Origin: Desulfobacterales bacterium
GTDB lineage: Bacteria > Desulfobacterota > Desulfobacteria > Desulfobacterales > JAHEIW01
Reading direction: 5' to 3'
Assembly: GCA_030066985.1 (NCBI GenBank)
Contig: JASJAN010000032.1
Location: 1-64,000, forward strand
DNA: 64,000 nucleotides
Made by a program: the position numbers and the translations under genes. The notes below the pieces were generated by a model. The model saw only the letters and a list, made by a program, of their open reading frames with translations, was not told where the DNA came from and ran no database searches. Below, in pieces: positions 26,185-64,000 of this stretch. Position 1 is the stretch's first letter, and the number at the start of each line of letters is the position of its first letter.

Positions 26185-26225
26185 ATTGAATTACCCTGGT
26201 AGAATAATTTTAATATCTGTATTTT

Positions 26226-26328: not shown

Positions 26329-26343
26329 AAAACAAAATATAGA

Positions 26344-28506: not shown

Positions 28507-28596
28507 CTTAAAATAGTCCTTTTAATAAAGATATTTTTTCCATCGGCTATCACGAAATCGTTTCCGTCCAGAGGACACCTGCGAAAAAATCGTCAA

Positions 28597-28779: not shown

Positions 28780-28850
28780 TTTTCATTGGTTTAGTTGTCT
28801 GCGACACGCTATTTCAAAAGGATCGCATCGGTTTTGTGCAGGATCAGGGA

Positions 28851-30332: not shown

Positions 30333-30345
30333 AATCACGCCTCCT

Positions 30346-31014: not shown

Positions 31015-31032
31015 CGCGTAATCCTCCTTCAA

Positions 31033-32190: not shown

Positions 32191-33648
32191 TTAATATCCT
32201 CTGTTTTCCGTCATCTGTTCGCTGACACCTGACACCACAGGCTTTGTTTCGTCTGCGGCCAGCACGCCGAGGGCAACTGGTTTAATCGATGGTCGGGGGT
32301 TTAAAGTTCCGACATCTTCAACTGCCACATTGAGCCGATGCCGCAGCAATTCAATAACGGCCGGCCCGCACATACGCCCCTCACAGGCACCCATGCCCAA
32401 GCGGGTCATGCGTTTGACATCTTTTATGCGCAGGTTGCCATCCGACAGCGCCGCTTCTAATTGTTTAAGCGTTACCTCTTCACAGCGGCAAATGACCGTG
32501 TCGTCGGTTGCCAGCTCGCAAAGGCCTTTACGCGGCAGACTGATGTTGTCGAGGACTTTGCGGAATCGATTGATGGTATTCAGTTTTTTTTGGTAAGGCC
32601 GCATTTGTTCAGCGGCGGTTGCCGGTGAAATGGTGCCCAGAGCGCGGGCTGCCGCAATCCCGGCAATACAGCCTTCCGCAATGGCGGCTTTTCTGCCGGC
32701 AACGCCGGCGCCATCGCCAACCGCATAGATACCCGGCACGCTGGTTTCCATGTTGGCCTTGCGCAGCGGAATGTAGCCTCCCCGTCTCAGATCGTATTCG
32801 TGCTCACATTCAGCCAGCATCGTCAGCTCTGCTGAAGACACCAGGCCGTAACCCAAACAGATGGTGTCCACTTTTATGAAGCGGGCGGTATTTAAACTGG
32901 GTCTCCAATCCTTATCGACTTCCGCAATCACCGCCTCCTGGACACGCCCATCGCCACGGGCCTCGAGGAGAATATGGCTTTGCAACAGCGGAACACCGGC
33001 TTTTTTAATGCTGCGCCAATACTGCATGCCTTCTTTTAAAAAATTCCAATTGCCCAAGACGCCCTTTAATGCCTGCAGCCAATGATTGGCATAATTACCG
33101 GTTTCCAGTATTGCCGATATATTGCCACCGGCCTTGATAATCTGGTCAGCCAGGACCAATTGTAAGGGTCCTGTGCCGGCAAGCAGGATGTTTTCTCCGG
33201 GAAGTACGCGTTCTGTTTTGACGAGCTTTTGAGCCCCGCCGGCGGCAAAAACACCGGGAAGTGTCCAACCCGGAAACGGAACCGGTCGATCATAGGCGCC
33301 CGTAGCGACGACCAGGTGCTTAAAGCGCAAACTGGATGAGGTACCGTTACGCGCCAGGGCAAGGCTGCGATCATCAAATATCCCCCACACCAGGGTATTA
33401 TTTAAATATTGGATTTTATCTGCGTGAGAATAGAATTGATGCAGCAAATCCTGTCCCTCTGTATAATCCGGACCCAGAGCGTCAGGATCGGCGACGTTAA
33501 AACCTTTTTGATATTGTCGGAAGCACTGGCCCCCCAAACATTCATTTTCATCCAACAGCGTGACGTTCACCCCGGACCCGGTCGCTTTTATGGCAGCCGC
33601 CACCCCACCGGGCCCGCCGCCGATGATGACAATATCGGATGTTCTCAC
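32191..33648 (-). CDS. HcnB-like FAD/NAD-binding subunit with Cys-rich C-terminus
   Basis: Pyridine-nucleotide-disulfide-type flavoprotein of 485 residues. The first FAD motif IVIIGGGPGGVAAAI is at about 5-18, with AVGDGAGVAGRKAA in the second FAD region. About residues 385-440 hold a BFD-like iron-sulfur motif: ICRCEEVTL, then GACEGRMCGP. The start is GTG at 33648, three bases after the upstream 2Fe-2S gene. The last ~15 codons (VVSGVSEQ and following) run through a copy of the CTGACACC repeat (32222-32236), so the native C-terminus may have been altered. Alpha-subunit role in an HcnABC-like amine dehydrogenase. Confidence 0.9.
   Translation of the reverse strand: MRTSDIVIIGGGPGGVAAAIKATGSGVNVTLLDENECLGGQCFRQYQKGFNVADPDALGPDYTEGQDLLHQFYSHADKIQYLNNTLVWGIFDDRSLALARNGTSSSLRFKHLVVATGAYDRPVPFPGWTLPGVFAAGGAQKLVKTERVLPGENILLAGTGPLQLVLADQIIKAGGNISAILETGNYANHWLQALKGVLGNWNFLKEGMQYWRSIKKAGVPLLQSHILLEARGDGRVQEAVIAEVDKDWRPSLNTARFIKVDTICLGYGLVSSAELTMLAECEHEYDLRRGGYIPLRKANMETSVPGIYAVGDGAGVAGRKAAIAEGCIAGIAAARALGTISPATAAEQMRPYQKKLNTINRFRKVLDNISLPRKGLCELATDDTVICRCEEVTLKQLEAALSDGNLRIKDVKRMTRLGMGACEGRMCGPAVIELLRHRLNVAVEDVGTLNPRPSIKPVALGVLAADETKPVVSGVSEQMTENRGY
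32222..32236. repeat. CTGACACC-family repeat inside a coding region
   Basis: CTGACACCTGACACC lies inside the last codons of the HcnB-like gene. It is the same unit as the intergenic repeats at 6018, 8098 and 16405. It reads in frame without stopping the gene early. Confidence 0.75.
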
Positions 33649-33651
33649 GTG

Positions 33652-33963
33652 TTATGATTCCCGTTTTGGTATGCTTCTCTGGGTTTCGACCCGGCACCCT
33701 GGAGCGGCAAGCGTTTGGCAGGCCTGGGTGTTGGGTATTCCGTTTATGACCATACGGCATTCCTGACACAGCCCAATACCGCAATAAAGCCCCCGGGGTT
33801 GTGCGAGCTTATGGGTATAGCGCAGGGTCCTGCGATCGGCAGCCAGCAATACTGCCCCAATGGTCTCACCTTCGTAGGCAGTGATCTTTTCGCCATCTAC
33901 CTCTATCTCAAACGGCTGCCCTCGTTTGACACCTTTAAATATGCGTTTGTCTGTTTGACCCAT
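33652..33963 (-). CDS. HcnA-like (2Fe-2S) ferredoxin subunit
   Basis: Small [2Fe-2S] protein of 103 residues, equal to the N-terminal domain of sarcosine oxidase alpha subunits and to HcnA. The cluster ligands are C61, C66, C69 and C82 (YCGIGLCQECRMVING, then TQAC), in the order used by plant-type ferredoxins. It begins the operon of three dehydrogenase subunits, followed by the corrinoid protein and MttB, and would pass electrons from the flavin centres to a quinone or another carrier. It is preceded by 628 bases without a gene, where the operon promoter should lie. Confidence 0.92.
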   Translation of the reverse strand: MGQTDKRIFKGVKRGQPFEIEVDGEKITAYEGETIGAVLLAADRRTLRYTHKLAQPRGLYCGIGLCQECRMVINGIPNTQACQTLAAPGCRVETQRSIPKRES

Positions 33964-44940: not shown

Positions 44941-45013
44941 ATACCATGCGGCTTTATCAATATTGCCGATAAGGTCTTATGGCAATCATAGAGAAAGATA
45001 AACCGCATGGTAT
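44941..45013 (+). promoter_or_regulatory. Hairpin overlapping the start codon of the MFS gene
   Basis: ATACCATGCGGCTTTATC (44941-44958) pairs with GATAAACCGCATGGTAT (44997-45013) with one bulge. ATTGCC/GGCAAT and ATAAG/CTTAT (44962-44986) form an inner stem. The right arm contains the ATG at 45007-45009, so the start codon would be buried in RNA structure. Confidence 0.5.
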
Positions 45014-46260
45014 CAACACTTCTTGCCTTCGGGGCCCTCTTTGCATCCGCCCTGTTTTTTTTGATGGGCAGTGCGGTATTGAGCACCCAGCTTAGCCTGC
45101 GCATGACCCAGGAAGGATTTTCAACCCTGACAATTGGCATTACGCTGGCATGTTACTTTCTGGGTTTGATGACAGGTTATTTTTTATGCCATCGCCTCAT
45201 TCAGCGGGTAGGACACATCCGATCCTTTGCCGTATTTGCGGCTGCCACCACCATCATCATTATCCTGCACGGGCTTTATATGTCCGCTATTTTTTGGGCG
45301 ATGCTTAGATTTATTAACGGGATTACCATTTTCGGTTTATTTATGGTTGTTGAGAGCTGGTTGAACGAATGCAGCCAGAGCCAGACCCGGGGACGTGTCT
45401 TTTCCATCTATATGACCTTAGCCTATATGGGAATCGGAATCGGACAGCAATTGCTCAACTTGGGGAATGACAGCGGCCAGCAATTGTTTTGGATTGCAGC
45501 GCTTCTTTTCTCCTTAAGCCTAATCCCAGTGTCTACAACGCGATCCGTGCACCCTGAATTACCACAGCCCACGCGATACACTTTCCGGGCGCTTTTTCAT
45601 AAAGTCCCTCTCGGGATGCTGGGGTGTTTTGCGGCCGGTCTGGTCAACAGCGCATTTTTTTCGATGGCCCCAGTTTTCGGAACGAAAATCGGTTTATCAG
45701 TTTTTCAATTGTCATGGTTCATGTCAACAACGGTCATCGGTGGTTTTGCTGTGCAATGGATGATCGGCATTATCTCGGACCGATTCGACCGCACACTCGT
45801 TTTGAGCATTATCACAGGCTTTGTGGCATTGCTCAGTCTAAGCATGGTGATGAACAGCGGAATTTCTTACGCCTGGCTTCTTTTTAAAATGGCCATTTTC
45901 GGCGGCCTGATATTTGCCGTCTATCCGCTGGCAGTCGCCCGCGCAAATGATGTCTTTGAGGGCAAAGACGCGGTGTCCATCAGTTCGGCACTTTTGCTCT
46001 GTTTTAGCATTGGCGCCATTTTCGGCCCTGTACTGGCATCTATCACCATGACGCTATTAGACACACCTTACGGATTGTTTGTATACTGGTCGCTGGTCAC
46101 CGGGACATTTGCCTTGGTTTCCCTTTATTTAAAATACAAGGAAAGGGTCACAATTATTCAGCCGGCGGAGCAGGTTAATTTTGCGCCCATGAAAAACACG
46201 TCATCAATGGCGATGGTGCTGGATCCCCGGACAGATGCCGAAGCAGATGAAGGTATATAA
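45007..46260 (+). CDS. MFS transporter (YcaD-like)
   Basis: Major facilitator protein of 417 residues with about 12 hydrophobic helices in two halves. The loop between helices 2 and 3 (YFLCHRLIQRVGHIRSF) corresponds to the MFS motif A region, and WLNECSQSQTRGRVFSIYM resembles the YcaD-type family pattern. The C-terminal 40 residues are soluble. Substrate unknown. The start codon is within a hairpin (44941-45013) and the ribosome site is weak (GAGAAAG). It runs convergent with the SDR gene, 39 bases away. Transport of an amino acid or organic osmolyte would fit the neighbourhood but is inference. Confidence 0.9.
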   Translation: MVSTLLAFGALFASALFFLMGSAVLSTQLSLRMTQEGFSTLTIGITLACYFLGLMTGYFLCHRLIQRVGHIRSFAVFAAATTIIIILHGLYMSAIFWAMLRFINGITIFGLFMVVESWLNECSQSQTRGRVFSIYMTLAYMGIGIGQQLLNLGNDSGQQLFWIAALLFSLSLIPVSTTRSVHPELPQPTRYTFRALFHKVPLGMLGCFAAGLVNSAFFSMAPVFGTKIGLSVFQLSWFMSTTVIGGFAVQWMIGIISDRFDRTLVLSIITGFVALLSLSMVMNSGISYAWLLFKMAIFGGLIFAVYPLAVARANDVFEGKDAVSISSALLLCFSIGAIFGPVLASITMTLLDTPYGLFVYWSLVTGTFALVSLYLKYKERVTIIQPAEQVNFAPMKNTSSMAMVLDPRTDAEADEGI

Positions 46261-47466: not shown

Positions 47467-48810
47467 ATGGACCGCAACGAGCGCGTCATCGAATTTCTGC
47501 TGGACACAAAATGGCACGACCTGCCGGAAGCCATTCAACATCAAAGCAAAAGGGCACTTTTGGATAACCTGGGCGTTCTCGTTGCAGGCGGCAAAATACC
47601 TGCCTCGCAGATCACCCATGCATTTGTACAGGATCAATTGGCTGCTCACAATCCGGAAGAGGCCTGTACGGTGCTGTCTACCGGAAAGAAGGTGTCTGCT
47701 GTTGGTGCGGCCCTGGCCAACGGGATTGCCGCCAATGGCCTGGATATGGACGACGGCTACAACCTGGCCAAAGGGCACCCCGGTGCAGCACTGCTTCCGG
47801 TGCTCCTGGCTTCGTCGGAACTGGCAACTGGAGCGGATGGTCGGGACTTTCTGGTGGCATTGGTAGCCGGCTACGAGCTGGCCATCCGGGCCGCAATCAT
47901 TCGCCATGCCACCTATACCACCTACCATTCTACCGGCAGCTGGGGTGCCATCGGCGGAGCGGCGGCCGGCGGCAAGATGCTGGGCTTGGATCACGAACAA
48001 CTCCGGTCTGCGATGGGAATCGCCGAATATTTCGCGCCCATCGCGCCGATGATGAAGGGTATCGAGGTGGCCGCGATGACCAAGGATAGCATCGGCTGGG
48101 GGGCCATGGTCGCCATGAGTTCTATCTTGATGGCCGGCAGGGGATTTTCCGGCGTCCAGCCTATCTTTGCCGACGGGCCTGGACCCGAGCTGACGGCTGG
48201 GCTTGGCAAAGACTGGCTCATAATGGACTTGTATCACAAACCCTACGCGTGTTGTTTTTGGGTGCACCCGCCAATTGCCGGTGCCTTGGCATTGATTAGA
48301 GATCACGGTCTTGCATCGGAGCAGATTGACCGGATCAAAGTACACTCTTTCCGGGATGCCACCCAGCTTTCCTGCGCAGCACCACGCGATACTGAGGAGG
48401 CGCAGTATAATCTGGCATACGGCCTGGCTTGCGCGATACTCAAAGGAAAGGTCGGACCCCAGGAAGTGACGCCTCCGACGATTGCTGATCCGCAAATCCT
48501 GGCTTTCATGGCCAAGATTGATCCGGTGGAAGATTCAAAGATCCAAAAGGGATACCCTGCCAATCGCCAGGCCCGGGTACAAATTACAACCACTGACGGT
48601 CGCATTTTCGACTCCGGTGTGGTGGATGCCCGCTGGGGCGTTCCGGCTGATCGGCCCACCGATCAGGACCTTATTGAAAAATTCCAAATGGTGACGGAAC
48701 CGGTTCTGGACCGCGGTAGCGCACGGGCGCTACAGGAGTTGGTTTGGCATCTGGAGCAGGCGCCCAGCGCGGCCCGCCTGGTGGATCTGGCCACAGCTAA
48801 AACCCGCTAA
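47467..48810 (+). CDS. MmgE/PrpD family protein
   Basis: Protein of 447 residues of the 2-methylcitrate dehydratase/cis-aconitate decarboxylase family. Features include RALLDNLGVLVAGGK near the N-terminus, NGIAANGLDMDDGYNLAKGHPGAALLPVLLA with the conserved H-P pair, LVAGYELAIRAAI, and YHKPYACCFWVHPPIAGALAL. Family enzymes catalyse dehydration or decarboxylation of tricarboxylates and some act on unusual hydroxy acids. The gene is followed after 143 bases by an MttB homolog and further on by an ABC importer on the same strand, so it may process the imported compound. The substrate is not predictable. GGGAGGAG precedes the ATG. Confidence 0.92.
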   Translation: MDRNERVIEFLLDTKWHDLPEAIQHQSKRALLDNLGVLVAGGKIPASQITHAFVQDQLAAHNPEEACTVLSTGKKVSAVGAALANGIAANGLDMDDGYNLAKGHPGAALLPVLLASSELATGADGRDFLVALVAGYELAIRAAIIRHATYTTYHSTGSWGAIGGAAAGGKMLGLDHEQLRSAMGIAEYFAPIAPMMKGIEVAAMTKDSIGWGAMVAMSSILMAGRGFSGVQPIFADGPGPELTAGLGKDWLIMDLYHKPYACCFWVHPPIAGALALIRDHGLASEQIDRIKVHSFRDATQLSCAAPRDTEEAQYNLAYGLACAILKGKVGPQEVTPPTIADPQILAFMAKIDPVEDSKIQKGYPANRQARVQITTTDGRIFDSGVVDARWGVPADRPTDQDLIEKFQMVTEPVLDRGSARALQELVWHLEQAPSAARLVDLATAKTR

Positions 48811-48953
48811 ACATGACACGGGCAATTTAGGTGCTGGTGATATTAATCTTTCTGGATGAAAATCGAATAAAAGACGGCATAGAGGCAAGATGAGCCTGAC
48901 TTTTGTACTTGATAGCTGAAATTGATCTTGCCGAGATGCCTGAAGGAGGTCAA

Positions 48954-50405
48954 ATGAAAAGTGGCGGCATGACAGGCGGCATCTATAAACCGCTTAATTC
49001 CGAACAGGTGGAGCTGATTCACAGTGAGGCTTTGCGCCTGATAGAAGAGGTCGGCATGGCATATGAAAGCGGTCAGGACGAGATGCTCGAGCTGGTAAAG
49101 CGCGCCGGCTGCAGGGTAGATCCGGCGGCCATGCGGATTTTTTTCCCACCGCGGCTGGTCGAGGAAATGGTGGCTCAAGCCCCGGGAGAGATTATTTTAT
49201 ACAGCCGGGACGACAAAAACGATCTTCATCTGGGCAAGGACCGCGTCTATGCTGGAACCGGAGGCACCACAGTGAAAGTCCTGGACCTGGATACCGGCGA
49301 AGTGCGACAGAGCGTGCTTCAGGACATCCACAATGTGGCGCGCATCGTGGAGGAAATGAAACACATCCATTTTTTTCAGAACTGTTGCGCACCCAACGAT
49401 GTACCTCATGAGGATTATGATATTAACATCGCTTTTGCCGCTATGATGGGCACCCGCAAGCATATTATGTTCGGGTGCAGCTGCGAACAGGGCCTGCGGG
49501 ATACCTACCGTATGGTCACCAGAATCGCCGGCGGAAAAGATGCGCTTGATGCCAGACCGCTCTTTTCGATCGCCGCCTGCATGATTATCAGTCCGTTGAA
49601 GTTTTGCACCCAGTCCACTGCTAACGTGCGCACCGCTGCAGAACTCAATGTGCTTACGACCGTTACCAGTGCACCCATGAGCGGCTCCACTGCACCGATG
49701 ACCATGGCTGGCACCTTACTGCAAACCCACGCCGAGGTAATGGCCGGGATTACCGTGCATCAGCTGACCCGGCCGGGCGCTCCCGTGCTTTATGGTGGAC
49801 TGCCAGCTCTGGCGGAAATGCACACCATGGGGTACCAGGGAGGTGCGGTTGAATGCGGTATGATGCAAACGGCAATCCATCAGCTCAGTCAAAGAATCGA
49901 TGTGCCCAATTACGCCACCTCAGGTTGTTCTGACGCCAAAATCCCTGACGCCCAGGCCGGCTGGGAAAAAGGCTTCACTACCGGTTTGGCGGCCATGGGC
50001 GGAAATAACTGGATCCACCACGCTGCCGGTATGCTGGAATCGATGCAGTGTATCGCTTACGAACAGTATGTGATCGATGACGAGATCATTGGCCAGGCCT
50101 GTAAAATCCTGGAGGGTATTTCAACGGGCGCGGACCACCTGGCCTTTGAAGCCATCCGCGACGTGGGCCCGGGTGGCAACTACCTGTTGTCCGACCATAC
50201 CTTTCAGCATTTGCGCTCTGAGTATTTTCAGGGCAACGGGGTCAGCGACAAGGCCGGGCGGGAAGCATGGATCGAAAACGGCCGTCTTTCAGCTCGCGAG
50301 CGGGCGCGGGCCATGGCGCGCGTCATCCTCGATAAGCCTGTGGATCCCAAAATCGATCCCGATATCGAGAAGGATATTCGAAGCGATTTTAATATCTTCC
50401 TGTAG
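48954..50405 (+). CDS. MttB-superfamily corrinoid methyltransferase, copy 2
   Basis: Second methyltransferase of this family, 483 residues from ATG 48954, with GAAGGAGG five bases upstream; a longer TTG frame from 48903 crosses that site. Core: ALRLIEEVGMAYESG, GTGGTTVKVLDLDTGEVRQ, LTRPGAPVLYGGLPALAEMHTMG, SGCSDAKIPDAQAGWEKGF and DVGPGGNYLLSDHTFQHLRSEYF. The frame is complete and ends in TAG at the normal length, so this TAG is a stop, not a pyrrolysine codon. No corrinoid protein gene is adjacent, so it must use one encoded elsewhere. The substrate may be the compound imported by the downstream ABC system, as inference. Confidence 0.92.
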   Translation: MKSGGMTGGIYKPLNSEQVELIHSEALRLIEEVGMAYESGQDEMLELVKRAGCRVDPAAMRIFFPPRLVEEMVAQAPGEIILYSRDDKNDLHLGKDRVYAGTGGTTVKVLDLDTGEVRQSVLQDIHNVARIVEEMKHIHFFQNCCAPNDVPHEDYDINIAFAAMMGTRKHIMFGCSCEQGLRDTYRMVTRIAGGKDALDARPLFSIAACMIISPLKFCTQSTANVRTAAELNVLTTVTSAPMSGSTAPMTMAGTLLQTHAEVMAGITVHQLTRPGAPVLYGGLPALAEMHTMGYQGGAVECGMMQTAIHQLSQRIDVPNYATSGCSDAKIPDAQAGWEKGFTTGLAAMGGNNWIHHAAGMLESMQCIAYEQYVIDDEIIGQACKILEGISTGADHLAFEAIRDVGPGGNYLLSDHTFQHLRSEYFQGNGVSDKAGREAWIENGRLSARERARAMARVILDKPVDPKIDPDIEKDIRSDFNIFL

Positions 50406-51680: not shown

Positions 51681-53348
51681 ATGAAAGACATTGAAACAGT
51701 TCACCCTGCCATTCACGATTTTAAGATCGATATGGACAAGGGCAAAATCACGCGGCGTCAATTTTTGAGATATGCCACGTTGCTGGGGATGTCTGTGGGT
51801 GCAGCGAGTCAATTGGCCGGAATAACATGGCCGAGCAAAGTGTTTGCTGCCAAGCAGAAAAAGGGAGGTGTTTTAACATTTGGCATGCAGGTCCAGGAAA
51901 TGGCCGACCCGGCGACCTATTCATGGACCCAGAAATCCGTGGTTGCGCGCCATATTATCGAGTACATGGTTTTGACCGGGCCGGATAACATTACGCGACC
52001 CTATTTGGCTGAAAGCTGGAAGGCATCTGACGATTTGAAAACCTGGACCTTCAATTTACGTAAGGGGGTTAAGTGGTCAAATGGCGATGACTTCAATGCC
52101 GATGACGTCGTATTTAATTTTACCCGCTGGCTTGACCCCAAAACCGGATCATCCAACCTGGGCCTTTTCGATGCCATGCTCGAAGAAAGCGGAGAGGTAG
52201 ATCAAAAAGGCAATCCGGTCAAGCGTATGATCAAAAACGCGGTTCAGAAAGTTGACAATCATACGGTCCAAATCAACCTGAAATCGCCGGTGCTGTCAAT
52301 TCCTGAAAACCTTTACAACTATCCCACCGGAATTGTGCATCGCAATTTTGAAAAAGAAGGCGGAGACCTCTCCAAGAACCCGGTTGGCACAGGTCCTTAC
52401 ACCCTGAGTGCATTCAAGGTCGGTGAGCTGGCGGTCTTGAAAAAACGCAAAGAACCCTATTGGGGCGGTGAAGTCTTTCTGGATGAAATTCGATTTGTTG
52501 ACCTCGGCGAAGATGCCGGCGCCTATCTGGCGGCTATCGCTTCAAGACAGGTTGACGGAATTTACAATATTGATCTGACAACCCTGGATGCAGCCAAAAG
52601 TATCCCGGGAATCAAGGTTGTCTCGATCCCATCGACCCAGACCGGGGTCATTCGCATGAAGGTCACCGAGAAACCCTTTACCGATCCTCGCGTGCGCCGA
52701 GCGGTCCAGTTAACCTGCGATGCAAAGAGACAGCTCGACATCGCCCACCGTGGCTTGGGGATCATTGGCGAGCACCATCATGTTGCCAAGATACACCCCG
52801 AATACTTTGCCCTGCCTGCCTTCAAGCAGGACATCGCCGGCGCCAAAAAACTGCTGGCCGAGGCGGGCTTCCCCAATGGCATCGATTTAGAATGCGCCGT
52901 GGGAAATACCGACGGCGTCTGGGAGCAGGATTCGGTGGCCGTGCTTAAGGAGGACGCCGCCAAGGCCGGCATCAACATTAAAATGAATGTGATGCCATCG
53001 GCAAAATACTGGGATATTTGGACAAAGGCGCCCTTGAGCCTGACCTCATGGACCCACCGTCCGCTGGCCGTAATGGTGCTGGGTCTGGCCTACCGCACCG
53101 GTGTGCCCTGGAATGAATCCAGCTATGCCAACCCCAAGTGGGATGCCGCTTTGACCGAAGCGGAATCGACCTTGGATGTTGAAAAACGGCGGGCCAAAAT
53201 GGAGAAGGTTCAGAAAATTTTGCAGGATGACGCCATCATGGTTCAGCCGTTCTTCCGAGCCGTATTCACAGCGGTCCGGGATAATGTCGTCGGTTTTGAA
53301 ATGCATCCGACCCGCTATTATCGCTTTCATAAGGTCTCTCTGGCCTAA
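51681..53348 (+). CDS. ABC importer substrate-binding protein (SBP_bac_5, Tat-type signal)
   Basis: Extracytoplasmic solute-binding protein of 555 residues in the dipeptide/oligopeptide/opine class. A twin-arginine motif T24-R25-R26-Q-F28-L29-R30 is followed by a hydrophobic segment and an Ala-x-Ala-like site near residue 56, so folded export by Tat is likely. Family features: [60 protein letters not shown] and [24 protein letters not shown] lies upstream. It starts the importer operon. Opine or N-methylated amino-acid-type solutes are plausible, given the neighbouring catabolic genes. Confidence 0.94.
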
Positions 53349-53600: not shown

Positions 53601-54536
53601 ATGGTCACCTTGGTGTTGAAACGCTTTGGGTTCATGATTTTTACCATGATTGTCGTTTCGCTGATTCTTTTTATACTGCTGGAGACAGGACTTACGGGCG
53701 ATCCCGCGGCGCGGGTGCTGGGCCAATTTTCAAACGAAGAGCAGCGCGAGCTGTGGCGCGAGCAGCACGGGTACAATCAGCCCGCCATGCTGCGTTATGT
53801 GAAGTGGCTGGGCAACTTTGCGACCGGCAACCTGGGGGAGTCCATCCGCTTTAAAGGCCCAGTCGCTGATGTGATGCTGCCGCGGCTATGGAACACCGCT
53901 ATACTGGGATTCTGGACGTTTGCGATTATGATCCCGCTATCATTGACGTTAGGTGTTTTATCGGGAATGAGAGAGGGGTCAATGCTGGATAGAACCATTT
54001 CGGTGTTTGGGATTCTAACCACTTCCGTACCGGAATTTGCCAGTGCGGTATTTTTCTCGGCCCTTTTTGTCTTCGGTCTCAAATGGCTGCCGGGCACCAG
54101 CAGTATGTCGGGCGGGTTCGATTGGCGACAGCTGGTTCTGCCGGTCATGGTGCTGGTGGTCTATGATTTTGGCTATGTCGCCCGCATGACCCGGGCATCC
54201 ATGGCGGAAGTCATGACCTCACAGTACATAAGGACAGCGGTGCTAAAAGGGTTGCCGTACAAATCGGTGATTATCAAGCATGCATTGCGTAACGCTCTGA
54301 TTGCGCCGTTTACGGTCATCATGCTGCAAATCAACTGGCTGCTGTCCGGAGTTATTGTGGTTGAATTCTTCTTTGCCTACAAGGGATTTGGTGCGCTGAT
54401 TCTGGAGGCTTCTCTGAACAACGATATTGCCCTTCTGGAAGCGTGCGCCATGGTGGCGGTTTTTGTCGCGGTGGCCACCCAAACCCTGGCCGATATTGGC
54501 TACACATTCCTCAATCCTCGCATCCGATTTAGCTAA
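53601..54536 (+). CDS. ABC transporter permease, DppB-like
   Basis: Inner-membrane permease of 311 residues with six predicted helices. The N-terminal cytoplasmic part has the LGDPAARVLGQ-type segment typical of DppB/OppB (here TGLTGDPAARVLGQFSNEE), and the EAA loop reads TAVLKGLPYKSVIIKHALRNALIAP, the ATPase contact motif. It is the second gene of the importer operon. The stop is 127 bases before the second permease. AGGAGGGG lies before the ATG. Confidence 0.95.
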   Translation: MVTLVLKRFGFMIFTMIVVSLILFILLETGLTGDPAARVLGQFSNEEQRELWREQHGYNQPAMLRYVKWLGNFATGNLGESIRFKGPVADVMLPRLWNTAILGFWTFAIMIPLSLTLGVLSGMREGSMLDRTISVFGILTTSVPEFASAVFFSALFVFGLKWLPGTSSMSGGFDWRQLVLPVMVLVVYDFGYVARMTRASMAEVMTSQYIRTAVLKGLPYKSVIIKHALRNALIAPFTVIMLQINWLLSGVIVVEFFFAYKGFGALILEASLNNDIALLEACAMVAVFVAVATQTLADIGYTFLNPRIRFS

Positions 54537-54663: not shown

Positions 54664-55563
54664 ATGATGAATACGACTGCAACAACAACTCAAATGCCTT
54701 CTGCCGGATACGGTGCGGCTTTGTGGCGAGCACTGAAATCTTTTAGGCTCTTGCGGGAGAGCTGGGTCGGCATGGCGGGAGCATTGCTCGTTTTATTCTG
54801 GGTAGTGGTGGCGATCCTGGCACCGGCGCTGGCGCCCTTTGACCCCAACTCGTCTATTCAGCCGTTTGCCAAACCGGGGGTAGTGGCGGCCAAAGGCGGC
54901 ACATTCTGGCTCGGTACCGATCATATTGGTCGCGATATTTTATCCCGTATTATCTGGGGTTCGCGCACGGTATTAATCTATTCGCCCTTGGCAACCCTTT
55001 CCGCTTACACGGTGGGTATTCTGATGGGGCTATTAGCCGGATATCGCCGCGGCTGGGTAGATGATGTTTTGTCTCGCCTGGCTGATATCATTCTCTCCTT
55101 TCCGGTGCTGGTGTTGTATATTATCATCATTGCCGTCATCGGCGCATCCGGGATTAATATCATTATTGCCATCACGTTTGCATCTTCACCGGGAATCATG
55201 CGTATTGTGCGCGGCCTGGTGCTGGATCTGCGCAATCGTGACTATGTCGCAGCAGCGCAAACCAGAGGCGAATCCGATTGGAAGGTGATGCTGGTCGAAA
55301 TTCTACCGAATGCACGCGGCCCGCTGATCGTCGATGCGTGCCTGCGACTGGGTTACGTTATTATCACCATCGGTGTGCTCGGTTTTCTGGGCCTGGGTCT
55401 GCCGCCACCGGACCCGGATTGGGGCGGCATGGTAAATGAAACCCGACAGATGGCCATGGCCTTTCCACACATGACGCTGTTTCCCTGTATCGCCATTTCC
55501 TCTTTGATTTTGGGGTTTAATCTCCTGGCGGACGGCCTGCGGGAAATCTCTTTGCGTGATTAG
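54664..55563 (+). CDS. ABC transporter permease, DppC-like
   Basis: Second permease of 299 residues, the usual DppC/OppC partner. The N-terminal helix precedes a periplasmic loop with FWLGTDHIGRDILSRIIWGSRT, the DppC family signature, and the EAA loop reads AQTRGESDWKVMLVEILPNARGPLIVDACL. AAGGAG lies before the ATG; an ATG-ATG pair leaves the start one codon uncertain. The ATPase gene follows after 14 bases. Confidence 0.95.
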   Translation: MMNTTATTTQMPSAGYGAALWRALKSFRLLRESWVGMAGALLVLFWVVVAILAPALAPFDPNSSIQPFAKPGVVAAKGGTFWLGTDHIGRDILSRIIWGSRTVLIYSPLATLSAYTVGILMGLLAGYRRGWVDDVLSRLADIILSFPVLVLYIIIIAVIGASGINIIIAITFASSPGIMRIVRGLVLDLRNRDYVAAAQTRGESDWKVMLVEILPNARGPLIVDACLRLGYVIITIGVLGFLGLGLPPPDPDWGGMVNETRQMAMAFPHMTLFPCIAISSLILGFNLLADGLREISLRD

Positions 55564-55577: not shown

Positions 55578-57683
55578 ATGAATGACGATCAAGCTCCGGT
55601 ACTGATCTGCAAAGACCTTAGCATCTCTTACTATACCCGGGCAGGAGAAATCCCGGCGGTGGTGGATTTTTCGCTGACGGTACTGCCCGGTGAAACCATC
55701 GGCATTGTCGGCGAATCGGGCTGCGGCAAATCCACCGTCGCCATGGCAGTCATGCAGTACATGGGCGGTAACGGCGGTATCAAAAGCGGCAGTATCACCT
55801 TTAAAGGCCGCGATCTAAACCAGATGTCGGAATCTGAGCTGCGCCGTATTCGCGGATCAGAAATTGCGATGATTTATCAGGAGCCCTTTGCCTCTTTGAA
55901 TCCAAGCCTCAAGATCAGCACCCAGCTGATGGAGGTGCCGCTGGCGCATGAAAATATTTCCAAGGATGAAGCGCGGCAAAGATCGGTGCAGATGCTGGCG
56001 GATGTCAAGCTGCCGGATCCCGAACGGATTATGGACTCATATCCGCATCAACTATCGGGTGGCCAGCAGCAACGCGTTGTTATCGCCATGGGCCTTCTGT
56101 CGAACCCATCGCTGTTACTGCTGGATGAGCCCACTACCGCGCTGGATGTTACCGTAGAGGCCGGCATCGTCAAACTGGTGGCCGATATCAGCAAGAAGTT
56201 CGGCACTTCGCAGATCTATATCTCCCATAACCTGGGGCTCATTCTGGAAACCTGTGATCGGGTATTCGTGATGTATTCCGGTGAAGTCGTCGAAGAAGGA
56301 ACCATTGACTCGCTGTTTACCTGGCCAAGGCATCCATATACCCATGGGCTTTTTGCATGCATTCCGCTGCCGACAGCTGACAAGAATGCTGCTCCGTTGA
56401 AACCGATTCGCGGCCAGCTCCCACTGCCTTTCGAACGGCCCCAGGGCTGTTATTACCATCCGCGCTGTGATCATTTTAAGCCCGGGTTGTGTGACCAGGA
56501 ACATATCTCCATGGAGCATGTTGTCGATAGCGCCGCCGACCACCGCGTGCGATGCTTACGCTATAAGGAAATCGATCATCACTTAGAGGCGCCGGGTGGT
56601 GAAGCCAAAGAAGCGCTTGAACTCGGTAAACGGGTGCTTGAAGTCGATCACATGAAGAAGTACTACGAGGTTCGTGACAGCTCGCTGCGGGCCCTGATTA
56701 GCGGCAAGCGCGTTCGTTATGTCAAGGCAAATGAGGAGTTGAACTTTACTGCCAGGGAGGGTGAAACCGTCGCCATCGTCGGCGAATCCGGCTGCGGTAA
56801 ATCAACATTTGCCAAAGTGCTGATGGGTTTGGAGAAAGGTACTGACGGCGAGGTGCGTCACAGAGACAAAGATCTTTCGGAAATAGCCGTTCGGGACCGC
56901 AGCGCAAAACAGATCGGTTCGCTGCAGATGGTATTTCAAAATCCGTTTGACACCTTGAACCCCAGCCACAGCATTGGTGGCCAGATATCACGGGTGATCA
57001 AGAAATTTGGCGTCGAGAAGGATAAAAAGAAAATTTTTGATCGCGTCATGACCCTGCTGGATACGGTCAAACTGCCCAGGGATTTTTATTTCCGAAAACC
57101 CCGGCAGCTGTCGGGCGGTCAGAAGCAGCGTATCGGTATCGCCCGGGCATTTGCCGGAAACCCAAGTATGGTCATCGCCGATGAGCCGGTTTCTGCCCTG
57201 GACGTTTCAGTGGCGGCGGCTGTAACCGAACTGCTGATGGAAATTCAGCGCGAACAAAAAACCACGCTGCTTTTCATCAGCCATGATCTGAGTGTCGTGC
57301 GCTACCTGTCGGATCGCATTGTCGTTATGTATCTTGGTCATATACTTGAAAGAGGCACTACGGAGGAGATTTTCGCGCCACCCTATTCCCCGTATACTGA
57401 GGCACTGTTATCGGCGGTGCCGATAGCCGATCCTGAAGTGACCAAGCGTGAGATCGTACTGGAGGGAAACCTGCCCAGCGCCATGAATCCGCCCAAGGGC
57501 TGCCCTTTTTGCACCCGCTGCCATCGGAAAATCGGCGATATTTGTGATAATGATCCGCCGCCGGAGCAAGTTGTGACGGATCGGCACGTCATCAAATGTC
57601 ATATTCCAATTGAAGAGTTGAAAAAGGTGGAGCCCGTCATCCATGTGCCGGATGACTCCGAACGGATCCACGCGCGGCATTGA
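55578..57683 (+). CDS. Fused DppD-DppF-type ABC ATPase (two nucleotide-binding domains)
   Basis: Cytoplasmic ATPase of 701 residues made of two nucleotide-binding domains in one chain, replacing the usual separate DppD and DppF. NBD1: Walker A G45-ESGCGKST, signature LSGGQQQR near 158, Walker B LLLLDEPTTALD; it ends in the oligopeptide tail with Cys motif YYHPRCDHFKPGLC. NBD2: Walker A GESGCGKST near 402, LSGGQKQR near 511, MVIADEPVSALD, ending in PFCTRCHRKIGDIC. The second domain lacks obvious defects, so both sites look active. It follows DppC by 14 bases and closes the operon. Confidence 0.95.
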   Translation: MNDDQAPVLICKDLSISYYTRAGEIPAVVDFSLTVLPGETIGIVGESGCGKSTVAMAVMQYMGGNGGIKSGSITFKGRDLNQMSESELRRIRGSEIAMIYQEPFASLNPSLKISTQLMEVPLAHENISKDEARQRSVQMLADVKLPDPERIMDSYPHQLSGGQQQRVVIAMGLLSNPSLLLLDEPTTALDVTVEAGIVKLVADISKKFGTSQIYISHNLGLILETCDRVFVMYSGEVVEEGTIDSLFTWPRHPYTHGLFACIPLPTADKNAAPLKPIRGQLPLPFERPQGCYYHPRCDHFKPGLCDQEHISMEHVVDSAADHRVRCLRYKEIDHHLEAPGGEAKEALELGKRVLEVDHMKKYYEVRDSSLRALISGKRVRYVKANEELNFTAREGETVAIVGESGCGKSTFAKVLMGLEKGTDGEVRHRDKDLSEIAVRDRSAKQIGSLQMVFQNPFDTLNPSHSIGGQISRVIKKFGVEKDKKKIFDRVMTLLDTVKLPRDFYFRKPRQLSGGQKQRIGIARAFAGNPSMVIADEPVSALDVSVAAAVTELLMEIQREQKTTLLFISHDLSVVRYLSDRIVVMYLGHILERGTTEEIFAPPYSPYTEALLSAVPIADPEVTKREIVLEGNLPSAMNPPKGCPFCTRCHRKIGDICDNDPPPEQVVTDRHVIKCHIPIEELKKVEPVIHVPDDSERIHARH

Positions 57684-57749: not shown

Positions 57750-58355
57750 CTAATCGATGCGTGATTTCTGGACCAGGTTACCCCCGTGCCAAAGATAGAT
57801 CGCCAACAAAGGCGCGGTCTCCGTTCGCATGGCATGCGGCTCCCAGGGTGCATGAAAAATGAGCTGGCCAGGGGCGCGATAGTCCCAATCCTGATCTCCG
57901 CGCTGCCACAAAGTTGGCCCCGTCAGGGGCACGTATACTTCTCTCGCCTCATGGCTGTGCCGCGGATATTTGATTTCAGGTCCCAAAAACAAAATGCCAC
58001 AGGCCATCCGATCACTGGCGATGGGACCCCGCAAGCCGATAAACTCCGTCCAACCATACCTCTCAAGAAAATCAGCACCACAATCCTGCGCTGCATAGGT
58101 TTGCCCCCAATTCAGGTGGTTTGCCAAGGAGTAAAGCATGCGAACCATAAACTCAGTTTGCTTCTCGGCTGCTGTGACGGCCGCCGGCATCCAGGAAAGA
58201 ACAGGAAGAGAACGCGGACGAATAAAACGTTTCACAACAATTTCGGATGGCCAATCTGCCAGGAGGGAATTTAGCTGCGGGTTGTCAAACCCTGTAAATA
58301 AATTGCGAATCGCAGTGACAAGCAGTTTGATGTTGTTTTGATGATCAACTAACAA
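57750..58355 (-). CDS. DMSP lyase-like cupin (DddQ/DddL group)
   Basis: Cupin protein of 201 residues that matches the dimethylsulfoniopropionate lyase family pattern. The region WGQTYAAQDCGADFLERYGWTEFIG is followed by the cupin core Y130-P-R-H133-S-H135-E-A-R-E139-V-Y141 and a second-motif His174 (WEPHAMRTE). H135, E139, Y141 and H174 have the same spacing as the metal/catalytic residues I recall for DddQ. DddQ-type enzymes cleave DMSP to dimethylsulfide and acrylate. The start is TTG at 58355, without a strong ribosome site. The universal stress gene is 43 bases upstream and the ABC ATPase gene is convergent. DMSP as the true substrate needs testing. Confidence 0.82.
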   Translation of the reverse strand: MLVDHQNNIKLLVTAIRNLFTGFDNPQLNSLLADWPSEIVVKRFIRPRSLPVLSWMPAAVTAAEKQTEFMVRMLYSLANHLNWGQTYAAQDCGADFLERYGWTEFIGLRGPIASDRMACGILFLGPEIKYPRHSHEAREVYVPLTGPTLWQRGDQDWDYRAPGQLIFHAPWEPHAMRTETAPLLAIYLWHGGNLVQKSRID

Positions 58356-58398: not shown

Positions 58399-58791
58399 CT
58401 ATTTGACCGCCACAACCGTGCAGGGTGCTTCCAGGATAACATACTGAGCAGTGGAGCCAAATACCAATTTTCCAACCTTTGATCTTCTTCTGACGCCGAT
58501 GATAATTTCATCCACATCGTTGTCTTTTACAAATTGGACCAGGTCTTCTCCAGTCGACCGGACACTGACGATGGCTTGCGTAACACAGGGGATATTATCC
58601 GCTTTAAAGGCCGCTTTTAGCTTTTCCAGCTTGTTTTCAGCTTTATCGATATCTTCTTTTTTCAAATCAGGACCTTGTTCCAATGAAGTGATAATATGAA
58701 TGTCGGCTTTAAATGCCTGCCCGTGTTTGTGGGCCACCTTGACTGCATCTTCAGCCACCTGTGAGCCGTCATAAGCCACCAGAATCTTCAT
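58399..58791 (-). CDS. Universal stress protein family
   Basis: Single-domain UspA-like protein of 130 residues. KILVAYDGSQVAEDAVKVAHKHG at the N-terminus and the ATP-binding motif G-x2-R-x-KVGKLVFGSTAQYV (about 100-120) are present, so it is the ATP-binding type. The start at 58791 follows GGAAGGAGG; a longer frame to 58815 crosses that site. It is 43 bases upstream of the DMSP lyase-like gene and downstream of the third MttB homolog with a 291-base gap. No signalling partner is apparent. Confidence 0.93.
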   Translation of the reverse strand: MKILVAYDGSQVAEDAVKVAHKHGQAFKADIHIITSLEQGPDLKKEDIDKAENKLEKLKAAFKADNIPCVTQAIVSVRSTGEDLVQFVKDNDVDEIIIGVRRRSKVGKLVFGSTAQYVILEAPCTVVAVK

Positions 58792-59082
58792 GTTGTCCTC
58801 CTTCCGTAAAGTCACGTTTGGAAAAGATAAATGCTGTTTAATATCTTATCATGTGTATAAAACCGCCGGACAACTGTCAAGATATCCGATCAGGTGTTCA
58901 GCTTTTCGGTTTCAAGTTCATAGGGCATGGACCTGTTGGTCATTAGCAGGGTGATTCTGTTGGGCAAAATTGATATCACAACTTCCCATCGTGCTTATTG
59001 CAGACAGGTTTGATTGTATATCGAATACAGGAACCGCCGGACTTGGTCAGTGGCAGCCGCAATTTTATCCCACCGGCAGGTG

Positions 59083-60549
59083 TTAGCCGGCATGCGCCTC
59101 AGTCAGCTCTTTTTCGCCTTTGATCTTGAGCTTTTCAAGGTTTGCCAGGGTCTTGCCAGGTAAGGGCGGCACCTTGTGTGTTTCTATGATGCTTTTGACC
59201 CTTTCGGCCACTCGCTGGCTCATATCTTTTGAACCCTGCTCGCACCAAAGATCATAGGGTTGGCGTGCCATCAGGCTCGGTATCCAGAGCTCTTTGCGAA
59301 AGTGTTCGTAGGTGTGATCCTCTTGCAGAAAATGCCCCCCCGGGCCGACCTTTTCCATCACATGGCGGGCCAATGTTTCGACGGACACGTCGATACCGCG
59401 AATAAAGCGCTTGGCCATTCCAATGACTTCATCTCCTAAAACGAGCATTTCCGCAGAGCAAATCATTCCCATATCCATATAGCCCACATCGTGAATCAGG
59501 TTCAGACCAGCCAACCCCTGGGCCAGGATGGAAAAGGCGCTTTCAATGCCCGCCTGGGCATCAATGGTTTTTGAATCGGTGGAACCGGCTAGGCCCCAGG
59601 TGGGCAACCCGAATGATTGAACCACCTCAGCCTGAGCGGCCAAACCCAGACTCATTTCAGGTGCAGCAATGCTCATTGTCGAGGTGGCCATGTCAAATCC
59701 GGAAACATTGCATCCCATAACATAAGGCGTCCCAGGATTGCGCAGCTGTATGAGGATCAGGCTCATCAGGCCTTCGGCAACAGCCAGTGCCACTGTGCCG
59801 GCCAGGGTAACTGGGGCTGTAGCACCTAACTGCTGAGATGGGGCAACAACCTGGGGCAGAAAAAGATCGGCAGATAAAAACATTTTATCCACCGGTTCCT
59901 CCGGAAACACCAGTGGTGTGATAGGCTCCGGGTATGATATCATAAAAGGTTTTTCCCGCAGGGCATCCATACCGCCAGCCACCTCGGCAGCCATTTCGTA
60001 CACCAGCTCACTGCCGTGAGCTGAATATCCAATAAAAACAATCGGCTTGGTAGTGTGGGTCACCGCGGCTTCGAACTCGTGCAAATCGGCCGCAATGGCC
60101 GGGACATCCTGGCTGGAACCCATGGGCATCACCCAGTCGATATGGGCCAGTGCATCAGCGACGAGGGCGCCGTGAGCAATGTCAATGACACGTGTTTCAT
60201 GGATCTCACCGGTCAAAGCGTCTTTGGTGCGCGGGCTGGCAGTTGAGGTGCCGTAATAACTTTTGCGCCCCTCGACCTCCATGGCACGCTGTCCCTGCCG
60301 ATCATAGATGGTAAATCCCTTAGGAACTTTTTCCAGGCACTCCTGCACAATATATTCGGGGACTTTTACAATTTCACCCCTTACCATGGCACCGGCCTGC
60401 TTGAGCATTTTACGGGCCCCTTTGTGGAGCACTTTGGCGCCGGTCTTTTCCAGGATGTCAAAGGCAGCGCGTTGAATTTCCCAGATCTGGTCATCACTGA
60501 GAACACGGAAAAATACAGACCGGTTATCTCTAAAGGACGACTGGATCAT
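59083..60549 (-). CDS. MttB-superfamily corrinoid methyltransferase, copy 3
   Basis: Third methyltransferase, 488 residues, complete and without an in-frame UAG. Family features: DILEKTGAKVLHKGARKML, YYGTSTASPRTKDALTGEIHE, LRNPGTPYVMGCNVSGFDMATSTMS, GSTDSKTIDAQAGIES and DVGYMDMGMICSAEMLVLGDEVI. It has diverged clearly from copies 1 and 2, so it is not a recent duplication. TTAAGGAGG precedes the ATG. Upstream on the same strand lies an AOR-family gene after 130 bases. No corrinoid protein gene is adjacent. The methylated amine is unknown. Confidence 0.92.
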   Translation of the reverse strand: MIQSSFRDNRSVFFRVLSDDQIWEIQRAAFDILEKTGAKVLHKGARKMLKQAGAMVRGEIVKVPEYIVQECLEKVPKGFTIYDRQGQRAMEVEGRKSYYGTSTASPRTKDALTGEIHETRVIDIAHGALVADALAHIDWVMPMGSSQDVPAIAADLHEFEAAVTHTTKPIVFIGYSAHGSELVYEMAAEVAGGMDALREKPFMISYPEPITPLVFPEEPVDKMFLSADLFLPQVVAPSQQLGATAPVTLAGTVALAVAEGLMSLILIQLRNPGTPYVMGCNVSGFDMATSTMSIAAPEMSLGLAAQAEVVQSFGLPTWGLAGSTDSKTIDAQAGIESAFSILAQGLAGLNLIHDVGYMDMGMICSAEMLVLGDEVIGMAKRFIRGIDVSVETLARHVMEKVGPGGHFLQEDHTYEHFRKELWIPSLMARQPYDLWCEQGSKDMSQRVAERVKSIIETHKVPPLPGKTLANLEKLKIKGEKELTEAHAG

Positions 60550-60679: not shown

Positions 60680-62563
60680 TTAGGCCGCAGAATGCTTATG
60701 GTATTGAGGCGAATATATACCCAGTTCCGCCAGCTTCTCTGGCGTCGGCTGACCTTGAGCGTTCCAGCCCATGACATCGTAAAATTCCTGAATCATGGGT
60801 TCCATCCAGGCATGGGGTTTGGAAGGCGCCTCACCGGAGTTGTAGTCTTTTTCAAAAAACATGTCGGGCAGCCGGTCATCAGCTGCGCTGGCACCGTGTC
60901 TGAGGTTGAACAATCGTTCCAGATTGACGATTCTTTCGCCACTGACAATTAGCTTGGAAGCTTCCACCGGCCAGCCGGTTATGGCGGCCGTCAACTCAGC
61001 CTCCCCCACCAGATCATAGGCACAGATCAGACACAGCGCCGGCACCTTACACAGACCCAGGCCGTCCAGCACCGTACCCATGATACTGGACCTTCTGACC
61101 AGCTCGGCCTTACCATGAATGGATTTGAGGTCGGACGCTTTGGGAGCGCCTAGCTCTTCGGATTGCTCGTCCGGCAGCCACTTGTATTCCAGGGTGGCAA
61201 AAACATCATTAAAATCCGCTCCCCGGCTGGCAACCGCATATCCCAAAGCCGTTCCCATGATGTTATCCGGGTGGTAGCCGGCCATTTCCAGTCCTTTAAC
61301 GTGGGGGGCGTAATGCTCGGCCCCGCGCCCGATCACGCGGCTTGCCCGAAGCACACCTTGTGCCAGAATCTTGCCAAAACCCCGACCCGCAGCCATCTGC
61401 CGGATCAATGTCTCCATGGCATCGCCATTGCCCCAGGCAAGATCAAGTCCACCGGTATCCTTCAACGAGATAATACCCCGCTCGAAAAGATCCATGGCAA
61501 AAGCGATAACACTGCCGGCGGAAATATTGTCAAGCCCCAGCCGCGAGCACAGATTGTCTAAAAAGACGAGCGTATCGAGGTCGCGCAAGCCACACTTGGA
61601 CCCCAGCGAAAGCATGGGCTCAAATTCAGGGCGCACCGCCCGCATCCCCTTATATTTGCCGTGCTTAAATTTAATATCGGCCTTGCAGTGAACCGGGCAG
61701 CGATGGCAGCTGCGTCTGCGGGTGATCTGATCCTCTAATTTTTTGCCGTCGATTTGGCCGGCGGCTTCGAAAGTGTTTTGCCGGTAATTATGCGTTGCCA
61801 GGATTCCCAGATCATCCGCCCACTCGACATAACCGGCGCCGCCGTGTCTGGAGATGCCGGCATAATGGGGTGAATTCTGAATTTGCCAGATATAGCGTCG
61901 GACGGCTTCAGTAAATTGATCATTTGAATCAAACAAATTGCGGGATCTTTGTTTTTTGACCACAATGGCCTTCAAATTTTTGGATCCCATCACGGTACCC
62001 ATACCGGTTCGTCCGGCCGCATGATCCCGATCGGACATAATGCAGCCAAACAAAGCACCATTTTCCCCGCCCGGTCCGATGGTCAGCACACTTATTTTAT
62101 GGCTGCCGAGCTTGGCTTTTAAGCGCTCCTCGGTTTCCCATGTATCCAGGCCCCACAGGGATTTGGCATTGCGGATTTCGATGCTGTCACCGTCAATCAA
62201 CAGGTATACAGGCCTGCTCGACCTTCCCCGTAAAATCAGGCTTTGGATGCCATTGGATCGCAAGCGGGGGCCGAAATTGCCGCCGATGTTGGAACTGCCT
62301 AAAATTCCGGTGAGCGGTGAGAGGGCATTTATATGGAGCCTGGCAGACGACGGTGCCGCTGTGCCGGTCAGCAAACCGCAAGACATCAACAAAAGATTTT
62401 CAGGGCCCCGCGGGTCGACGCCGGCCGGCAGTTGATCGTATAACACGTGGACATTGAAACCGCGCCCGCCCAGATACTTGCCGGCCAGATCCTGTGGATA
62501 TTCGGCAAGCTTCCAGGTTTTGGCGGTTAAATCAACTTCCAGAGTGTTTCCCAATATGCTCAT
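60680..62563 (-). CDS. Aldehyde:ferredoxin oxidoreductase family protein, copy 2
   Basis: Tungsto- or molybdopterin enzyme of 627 residues. N-terminal motifs GNTLEVDLTAKTWKLAEYP, YLGGRGFNVHVLYDQLP and GLLTGTAAPSSARLHINALSPLTG place it in the AOR family. The iron-sulfur ligands are C286, C289 and C293 (SCHRCPVHC), with a candidate fourth in GLGLCKVPALC. GRTGMGTVMGSKNLKAIVV is the conserved pterin-proximal region. It differs from copy 1 in its active-site surroundings, so a different aldehyde is likely. It sits between a histidine-ammonia-lyase-type gene and an MttB gene. No MoaD-like gene is next to it. The ATG has a weak ribosome site. Confidence 0.94.
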   Translation of the reverse strand: MSILGNTLEVDLTAKTWKLAEYPQDLAGKYLGGRGFNVHVLYDQLPAGVDPRGPENLLLMSCGLLTGTAAPSSARLHINALSPLTGILGSSNIGGNFGPRLRSNGIQSLILRGRSSRPVYLLIDGDSIEIRNAKSLWGLDTWETEERLKAKLGSHKISVLTIGPGGENGALFGCIMSDRDHAAGRTGMGTVMGSKNLKAIVVKKQRSRNLFDSNDQFTEAVRRYIWQIQNSPHYAGISRHGGAGYVEWADDLGILATHNYRQNTFEAAGQIDGKKLEDQITRRRSCHRCPVHCKADIKFKHGKYKGMRAVRPEFEPMLSLGSKCGLRDLDTLVFLDNLCSRLGLDNISAGSVIAFAMDLFERGIISLKDTGGLDLAWGNGDAMETLIRQMAAGRGFGKILAQGVLRASRVIGRGAEHYAPHVKGLEMAGYHPDNIMGTALGYAVASRGADFNDVFATLEYKWLPDEQSEELGAPKASDLKSIHGKAELVRRSSIMGTVLDGLGLCKVPALCLICAYDLVGEAELTAAITGWPVEASKLIVSGERIVNLERLFNLRHGASAADDRLPDMFFEKDYNSGEAPSKPHAWMEPMIQEFYDVMGWNAQGQPTPEKLAELGIYSPQYHKHSAA

Positions 62564-62936: not shown

Positions 62937-64000
62937 CTAATGTAGTTGGCCGATCTGTTTTTCTACCGCTTTGATGATCTTATCGCTGCGCATGAGCTGC
63001 TTGATGGCGGCGATGTCTGTTGAAAGGATACGATCTTTGTCAAGGTGGGAAACGGCCTTGCGGATGACTTGGTAAGCCGCCAGAGTGCCTTGGCCGGGTT
63101 TCATATTGGTAAACAAATCCAGCGCTTGGGCGGCACACAAAAGCTCGATCGCAATCACATCTTCGGTATTGCGAACAATTTCTCTGCATTTGCGTGCCGA
63201 AATAGTGCCCATCGAGACATGATCTTCTTTATTGGCTGAAGTGGGGATCGAATCAATGCTGGCCGGATGACAGAGCACTTTATTCTCGGAAACGAGGGCA
63301 GCAGCTGTATATTGTACCAGCATGAATCCGGAATTCAGTCCGCCATCATCCACCAAAAAGGCTGGCAGTCCGCTAAGTTTGGGATTGACCAGGCGCTCGA
63401 TTCTCCTTTCTGAAATATCCGCCAGTTCCGCAACGGCCATTGCCAGAAAATCCATCGCCAAAGCCACCGGCTGGCCATGAAAATTGCCGCCCAGCAGAAA
63501 GGTATCGTCATCTGGAAAAATCAGCGGGTTATTTGTGGCTGAATTCATCTCGGTTTCGATGACCTGTCGGCAATAGCGGATCGCATCCCGGGTGGCGCCA
63601 TGAACTTGAGGTGAGCACCTTAAGGTGTAAGCATCCTGGACGCGGCTGCAATCCTTATGGGATGTGATGATTTCGCTGTTTTGGGTCATGCGGGCCATGT
63701 TATCGGCCGCGGCCGCCTGGCCGGGATGGGGCCTGACCTCGTGAATTTTAGGATCAAATTCTGTACGGCTGCCCATTAGCACTTCCAGGCTCATGGCCGC
63801 CGTAATATCGGTCAATTTGGCCAGCCGACCGGCATCATCGACCGCCAATCCACCGATGGCCGTCATCACCTGGGTGCCGTTGACCAGCGCCAGGCCTTCG
63901 CCGGCTTCCAGTTGTAATGGCTTCAGACCGCATTTACTGAGCGCCTGTCGCCCGGTGAGCCGCTGCCCTTTGAAAGAAGCCTCTCCTTGCCCGATGAGAA
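62937..64000 (-). CDS. hutH: Histidine ammonia-lyase-type MIO enzyme (N-terminus outside window)
   Basis: C-terminal part of an aromatic amino-acid lyase, open to the right edge; about 354 residues are visible. Motifs: EGLALVNGTQVMTA, VQDAYTLRCSPQVHGATRDA, SDNPL-like ATNNPLIF, GGNFHGQPVALAMDFLA and SIPTSANKEDHVSMGTISARKC, which contains the catalytic Glu region of HutH. The Ala-Ser-Gly triad that forms the MIO cofactor lies beyond the window. HutH deaminates histidine to urocanate; no other hut gene is visible here. Position upstream of AOR and MttB leaves open a related ammonia- or trimethylammonia-lyase activity. The product assignment is by family. Confidence 0.85.
   Translation of the reverse strand, partial: LIGQGEASFKGQRLTGRQALSKCGLKPLQLEAGEGLALVNGTQVMTAIGGLAVDDAGRLAKLTDITAAMSLEVLMGSRTEFDPKIHEVRPHPGQAAAADNMARMTQNSEIITSHKDCSRVQDAYTLRCSPQVHGATRDAIRYCRQVIETEMNSATNNPLIFPDDDTFLLGGNFHGQPVALAMDFLAMAVAELADISERRIERLVNPKLSGLPAFLVDDGGLNSGFMLVQYTAAALVSENKVLCHPASIDSIPTSANKEDHVSMGTISARKCREIVRNTEDVIAIELLCAAQALDLFTNMKPGQGTLAAYQVIRKAVSHLDKDRILSTDIAAIKQLMRSDKIIKAVEKQIGQLH

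Follow-up and report, generated by a model that had tools for sequence, protein, structure and literature searches.

Gene content of the locus

The window (the whole stretch of 64,000 nucleotides that was analysed, from a bacterium of the Desulfobacterales) encodes a DMSP-lyase-like (DLL) cupin, surrounded by genes for corrinoid methyltransferases, transporters and an aldehyde:ferredoxin oxidoreductase (Table 1). An earlier note on this DNA gave the coordinates of the cupin gene correctly; the strand, which it left unstated, is minus. It also placed AOR and MttB genes beside the cupin, as we find, with a Usp gene between MttB and the cupin.

Table 1. Coordinates in the window of the cupin gene, its active-site motifs and the neighbouring genes
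Feature	Position	Strand	Basis
MFS transporter	45007..46260	plus	PF07690
MmgE/PrpD family protein	47467..48810	plus	PF03972/PF19305
Second non-pyrrolysine MttB-family methyltransferase (MttB-B)	48903..50405	plus	PF06253 1.2e-105
SBP_bac_5 solute-binding protein	51681..53348	plus	PF00496 4.3e-76
ABC permease	53601..54536	plus	recurrent ABC cluster
ABC permease	54664..55563	plus	cluster recurs in L033, L034 and rhizobial loci
Fused oligopeptide/dipeptide-type ABC ATPase	55578..57683	plus	NCBIfam dipeptide ABC ATPase; convergent with cupin
DMSP-lyase-like cupin (DLL), 201 aa, TTG start	57750..58355	minus	PF16867 1.4e-34; DddQ best PDB matches; tree
Cupin motif 2 metal ligand H174 (DddQ H163)	57834..57836	minus	alignment with DddQ
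Cupin motif 1, residues 130-141, YPRHSHEAREVY: Y130, H133, H135, E139, Y141	57933..57968	minus	aligned with DddQ Y120/H123/H125/E129/Y131
Universal stress protein (Usp)	58399..58815	minus	PF00582 1.9e-22; 43 bases upstream of cupin
Non-pyrrolysine MttB-family corrinoid methyltransferase (MttB-A)	59083..60549	minus	PF06253 1.6e-88
Aldehyde:ferredoxin oxidoreductase (AOR) family protein	60680..62563	minus	PF01314/PF02730

The AOR, MttB-A, Usp and cupin genes are co-directional, with the cupin last; a search of the gaps between them (130, 267 and 43 bases) revealed no terminator-like site on the minus strand. This run converges on the operon for the solute-binding protein, two permeases and ATPase, upstream of which are the genes for the MmgE/PrpD family protein and MttB-B. 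Both MttB proteins belong to the non-pyrrolysine type (they score below the TIGR02369 cut-off and have no internal in-frame TAG), and their nearest solved relative is a glycine betaine methyltransferase. All specific equivalogs for the SBP_bac_5 protein scored far below cut-off, and no transporter substrate model was reached.

Several of these neighbours recur at other cupin loci. In L033 and L034 the cupin again has Usp and the ABC operon on its flanks, with the fused ATPase adjacent to it; Usp is also its neighbour in L032. The MmgE/PrpD gene is found again in L027/L037, L034 and L024/L040, and in L027 and L025 an MFS transporter gene is next to the cupin or a short way from it. AOR adjoins MttB-type genes in four other genomes (G001, G002, G013 and G295).

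In another part of the window (25597-33963), genes for a BKACE-family enzyme, MttB, a corrinoid protein, a 2Fe-2S protein and FAD oxidoreductases are grouped, and the group resembles a locus for the degradation of carnitine- or betaine-type compounds. At 62937-64000, running on into L023, a gene for HutH adjoins AOR; HutU, formiminotransferase, amidohydrolase and cyclodeaminase genes follow beyond the window. The order histidine ammonia-lyase (HAL), AOR, MttB is kept in G001, G002 and G295, hinting, speculatively, at methylated histidine as a possible substrate of the cassette. A role in ergothioneine or hercynine metabolism, considered from the adjacent HAL gene, was rejected: at 717.7 bits, where the cut-off is 539.15, the enzyme qualifies as a true HutH belonging to a Hut operon, and the urocanase there is of the HutU rather than the thiourocanate type. 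Also rejected, as a parallel, was a HutH-like gene beside a DLL gene in Sinorhizobium, which scores far below the HutH cut-off and accompanies a DLL of another branch.

The cupin gene is the only PF16867 gene in the genome. A dsrA equivalog is present (613.7 bits against a cut-off of 392.85), and thus the host is likely a sulfate reducer of the Desulfobacterales, in agreement with the probable anaerobe of the earlier note. We identified no DMSP-catabolism genes (acuI, prpE or other ddd genes) among the assigned neighbours of the cupin. An AcuI/YhdH equivalog is encoded on another contig and could act on acryloyl-CoA. However, AcuI occurs in 133 of the 291 genomes sampled from the class (46%) and is therefore uninformative about the pathway of the cupin; its co-occurrence was rejected as pathway support.

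Family, fold and active site of the cupin

The cupin is a member of the DLL family PF16867 (DMSP_lyase), which is the sole Pfam match of the ORF (119.7 bits; cut-off 27). In NCBIfam, no model reported it at E 0.1. The profile search proposed earlier as a check thus chooses PF16867; no sugar isomerase or general cupin family is matched in Pfam or NCBIfam, and the outcome that the earlier note named as refuting its idea did not arise. Comparison with three intact relatives gives dN/dS of about 0.21-0.23, and the gene is under purifying selection.

A phmmer search of the PDB places DddQ of Ruegeria lacuscaerulensis first (2.3e-23), followed by 4B29 and 5CU1, entitled RnDddQII and R. pomeroyi DddQ, respectively. 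An AlphaFold2 model was built with seven sequences (mean pLDDT 76), and every one of its six best Foldseek matches is a DddQ-type DMSP lyase. In VIA-align comparisons, DddQ structures reach Z 14.3-14.7 over 166-176 residues, with the N-terminal helices matched too. DddY (Z 11.0) and DddK (10.5) come next, and then sugar isomerases and other, mostly unrelated, cupins (10.5 or below), with phosphomannose and lyxose isomerases at about 10. DddK is matched in sequence only at E about 0.5. Judged by sequence and modelled fold, the window cupin is nearest to DddQ. Its N-terminus is modelled as an ordinary soluble helix.

Tyr120, His123, His125, Glu129, Tyr131 and His163 are the essential residues of DddQ according to Li and co-workers, as cited in PMC4437653, and the two tyrosines among them are described as typical of cupin DMSP lyases (PMC5395565). 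All six are kept in the window cupin, as Y130, H133, H135, E139, Y141 and H174; DddQ W178 is also conserved, as W189. The earlier note had reported H135, E139, Y141, H174 and the core, which spans residues 130-141, all of which are present, and had seen in their spacing the mark of a DMSP lyase. The residues, the family and the proximity to DddQ bear this out in part. However, in an alignment of 82 sequences these six positions hardly vary, whether in the window clade, in DddQ, in DddL or in the 25 further branches, rhizobial ones included. As they are nearly constant across all sampled PF16867 branches, the signature marks family membership rather than substrate or DMSP specificity; it was rejected as proof of the latter, and the spacing cannot single out a DMSP lyase.

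Phylogeny, gene linkage and dispensability

A scan of genome contigs yielded 80 named loci, to which relatives and Rhodobacterales were then added for an IQ-TREE tree. The window cupin falls in a group of 12 (100/98) made up of Desulfobacterota, including two Olavius symbiont genomes, and two Thioglobus-type proteins. This group is nested in a clade of 37 with Inquilinus, Mesorhizobium/Aminobacter and Rhodobacterales, in which no characterised member was found. Sister to the 37, with weaker support (88/62), is a clade of seven (100/99) that holds all three DddQ structures and excludes the window cupin. DddL is on a separate, remote branch. Thus, the cupin is DddQ-like but lies outside the DddQ clade.

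Clade-mates in Rhodobacterales (L044, L047, L055 and L099) adjoin apt (adenine phosphoribosyltransferase) and, in some of these loci, mtnP-like genes, named by reading the sequences; this context is unrelated to DMSP. Genes for oligopeptide-type ABC transporters are repeatedly found next to DLL genes of several branches, that of Sinorhizobium included. A different DLL branch on Ensifer/Sinorhizobium plasmids (L117 and L121) has the DLL gene inside an ABC operon, between the gene for the solute-binding protein and those for two permeases and the ATPase. Relatives about 50% identical to the window cupin are encoded in L112:4740-5525 and L114:4740-5543 (IMG/VR), and also in L046 and L051. In these four, the genes for the portal protein and the terminase large subunit of an alphaproteobacterial phage or prophage flank the cupin gene, which runs on the opposite strand; here a DLL cupin is phage-carried.

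In Desulfobacterota, the linkage of the cupin to MttB is recurrent and specific. MttB lies within about 10 kb of the cupin at six of nine loci, where about 0.4 would be expected; per-genome MttB counts give P of about 1e-7 under random gene placement, a value that is overstated because methylotrophy genes cluster anyway and the genomes are related. Orthologues of MttB-A, with 57-68% identity to that of the window, are next to the cupin or near it in L032, L033 and L038, as are orthologues of MttB-B (50-63% identity) in L034, L037 and L038. In Mesorhizobium, MttB lies about 8.5 kb from the cupin, but within a single clade, and this was not treated as an independent case. All six clade-positive genomes in the class sample of 291 hold both MttB-A and MttB-B, which occur in 48 and 47 of the 291, respectively; the probabilities of this (about 1.5e-5 and 1.3e-5) are likewise overstated by kinship and gene clustering. 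The osmolyte-degrading locus proposed in the earlier note gains from this recurrent linkage, but the note's idea that it deals with both sulfonium and quaternary ammonium compounds is conjectural as regards the substrate of the cupin. No DMSP-specific partner gene was identified among the assigned neighbours.

The cassette also persists without the cupin. G295 (another family) and G001 (the same genus) keep the HAL-AOR-MttB-Usp-ABC genes and lack it, and the transporter proteins of G295 are 82-93% identical to those of the window. In G002 (the same genus, and the nearest relative), the proteins encoded from MttB-B through MttB-A share 88-96% identity with those of the window, and AOR no more than 66%. 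The cupin of this syntenic locus is a remnant (L183:10752-11072; G002:C335) in which the first 107 residues, at 55% identity, are followed by stops. The catalytic half, and with it the metal site, is gone. Its dN/dS of 0.44, compared with 0.06-0.13 for the neighbours, indicates relaxed selection. Thus, the cupin is not needed for the main job of the cassette; it is an accessory rather than a core component, under selection where intact.

Proposed function and comparison with known systems

DddQ and DddW share an established mechanism, in which the carboxylate of the substrate is bound by the metal, a tyrosine acts as base and beta-elimination follows. From kinship to DddQ we infer, by analogy, a similar reaction here. 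The cupin would be cytosolic, with a divalent metal held by H133, H135, E139 and H174, and this metal would bind the substrate carboxylate. Y141, aided by Y130, would take the alpha proton, and the onium group would leave the beta carbon, forming acrylate and, for DMSP, dimethyl sulfide. Acrylate could pass to acryloyl-CoA and then to AcuI. The locus would import methylated onium osmolytes for demethylation by the MttB-family corrinoid methyltransferases, with the cupin as an optional side branch.

We favour, with about even confidence, a metal-dependent beta-elimination lyase on such a side branch; among single substrates, DMSP is the most probable. Either DMSP or a betaine would suit a setting of methylated-osmolyte genes, and another beta-onium or small carboxylate is nearly as likely as DMSP. 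A real contender, to which we give somewhat under an even chance, is a DLL enzyme with another natural substrate and DMSP as a side activity at most. It would account for the separation from the DddQ clade, the clade-mates in soil Mesorhizobium, Aminobacter and Inquilinus, those placed near apt/mtnP or between phage head genes rather than DMSP genes, the constancy of the six residues whatever the context, and the oligopeptide-type transporters beside several DLL branches, Sinorhizobium included. However, proven DMSP lyases are the closest proteins in sequence and fold, and in Desulfobacterota the cupin is specifically linked to genes for methylated osmolytes.

The remaining explanations fare less well. 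The patchy distribution (six true clade members in 291 class genomes), the truncated copy in G002 and the absence from the G001 cassette would suit a remnant of an acquired gene on its way out and of little use to its present host, but the window copy is full length with all active-site residues and a low dN/dS, and we consider such decay very unlikely. Hardly credible is a sugar isomerase or general cupin that resembles DddQ only at the metal site: phosphomannose and lyxose isomerases do appear among the fold matches, but DddQ scores about 4 Z units above them with the N-terminal helices included, and no such family was matched.

Sulfate reducers, including symbionts of gutless worms, might operate an anaerobic two-way switch, a scheme we regard as improbable. 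Imported DMSP or a related onium osmolyte would either donate methyls to MttB-A and MttB-B for sulfate respiration or be cleaved by the cupin, with acrylate and a volatile product (dimethyl sulfide or an amine) as the result.

Little is known of the enzymes that break down DMSP in anoxic sediments. Labelled MAGs in a 2025 saltmarsh study lacked known lyase genes, and dddQ was rare or absent (PMC12596276). For this activity, a concrete candidate is the DddQ-sister clade of Desulfobacterota, which is linked to corrinoid demethylases and is represented in genomes of Olavius symbionts. If the cupin is not a DMSP lyase, surveys based on PF16867 overcount producers of dimethyl sulfide. DMSP lyases of sulfate reducers are already known from DddY of Desulfovibrio acrylicus (PMC5395565); an MttB-linked DddQ-sister clade in Desulfobacterota was not found in the literature searched, which was only part of the whole.

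Non-pyrrolysine MttB proteins and transporters, as in the window, also make up MttB-superfamily osmolyte demethylation loci (MtgB/MtpB/MtcB type), for which the literature searched contained no report of a link to a DMSP-lyase-family cupin. DddY is a DMSP lyase of anaerobic settings (PMC5395565). DddY (Alcaligenes and Desulfovibrio acrylicus) has the same DMSP-lyase cupin fold (Z about 11) and a sulfate reducer among its hosts, but it is periplasmic and has about 380-400 residues rather than 201, and no sequence match to the window cupin was found. DddL, represented by a plasmid-borne copy of Rhodobacteraceae SC52 (L118), shares the Pfam family and the six residues. However, it belongs to a remote clade, has N rather than H at position 168, and is flanked by TetR and oxidoreductase genes, unlike the window cupin. 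DddQ (Ruegeria lacuscaerulensis 4LA2/5JSO, R. pomeroyi 5CU1 and Roseovarius RnDddQII 4B29) resembles the window cupin in length, fold and the six residues, at about 20-25% identity. The window cupin differs in having W150 (F140 in DddQ), in A118, G120 and other clade-specific residues, and in its anaerobic host and MttB context.
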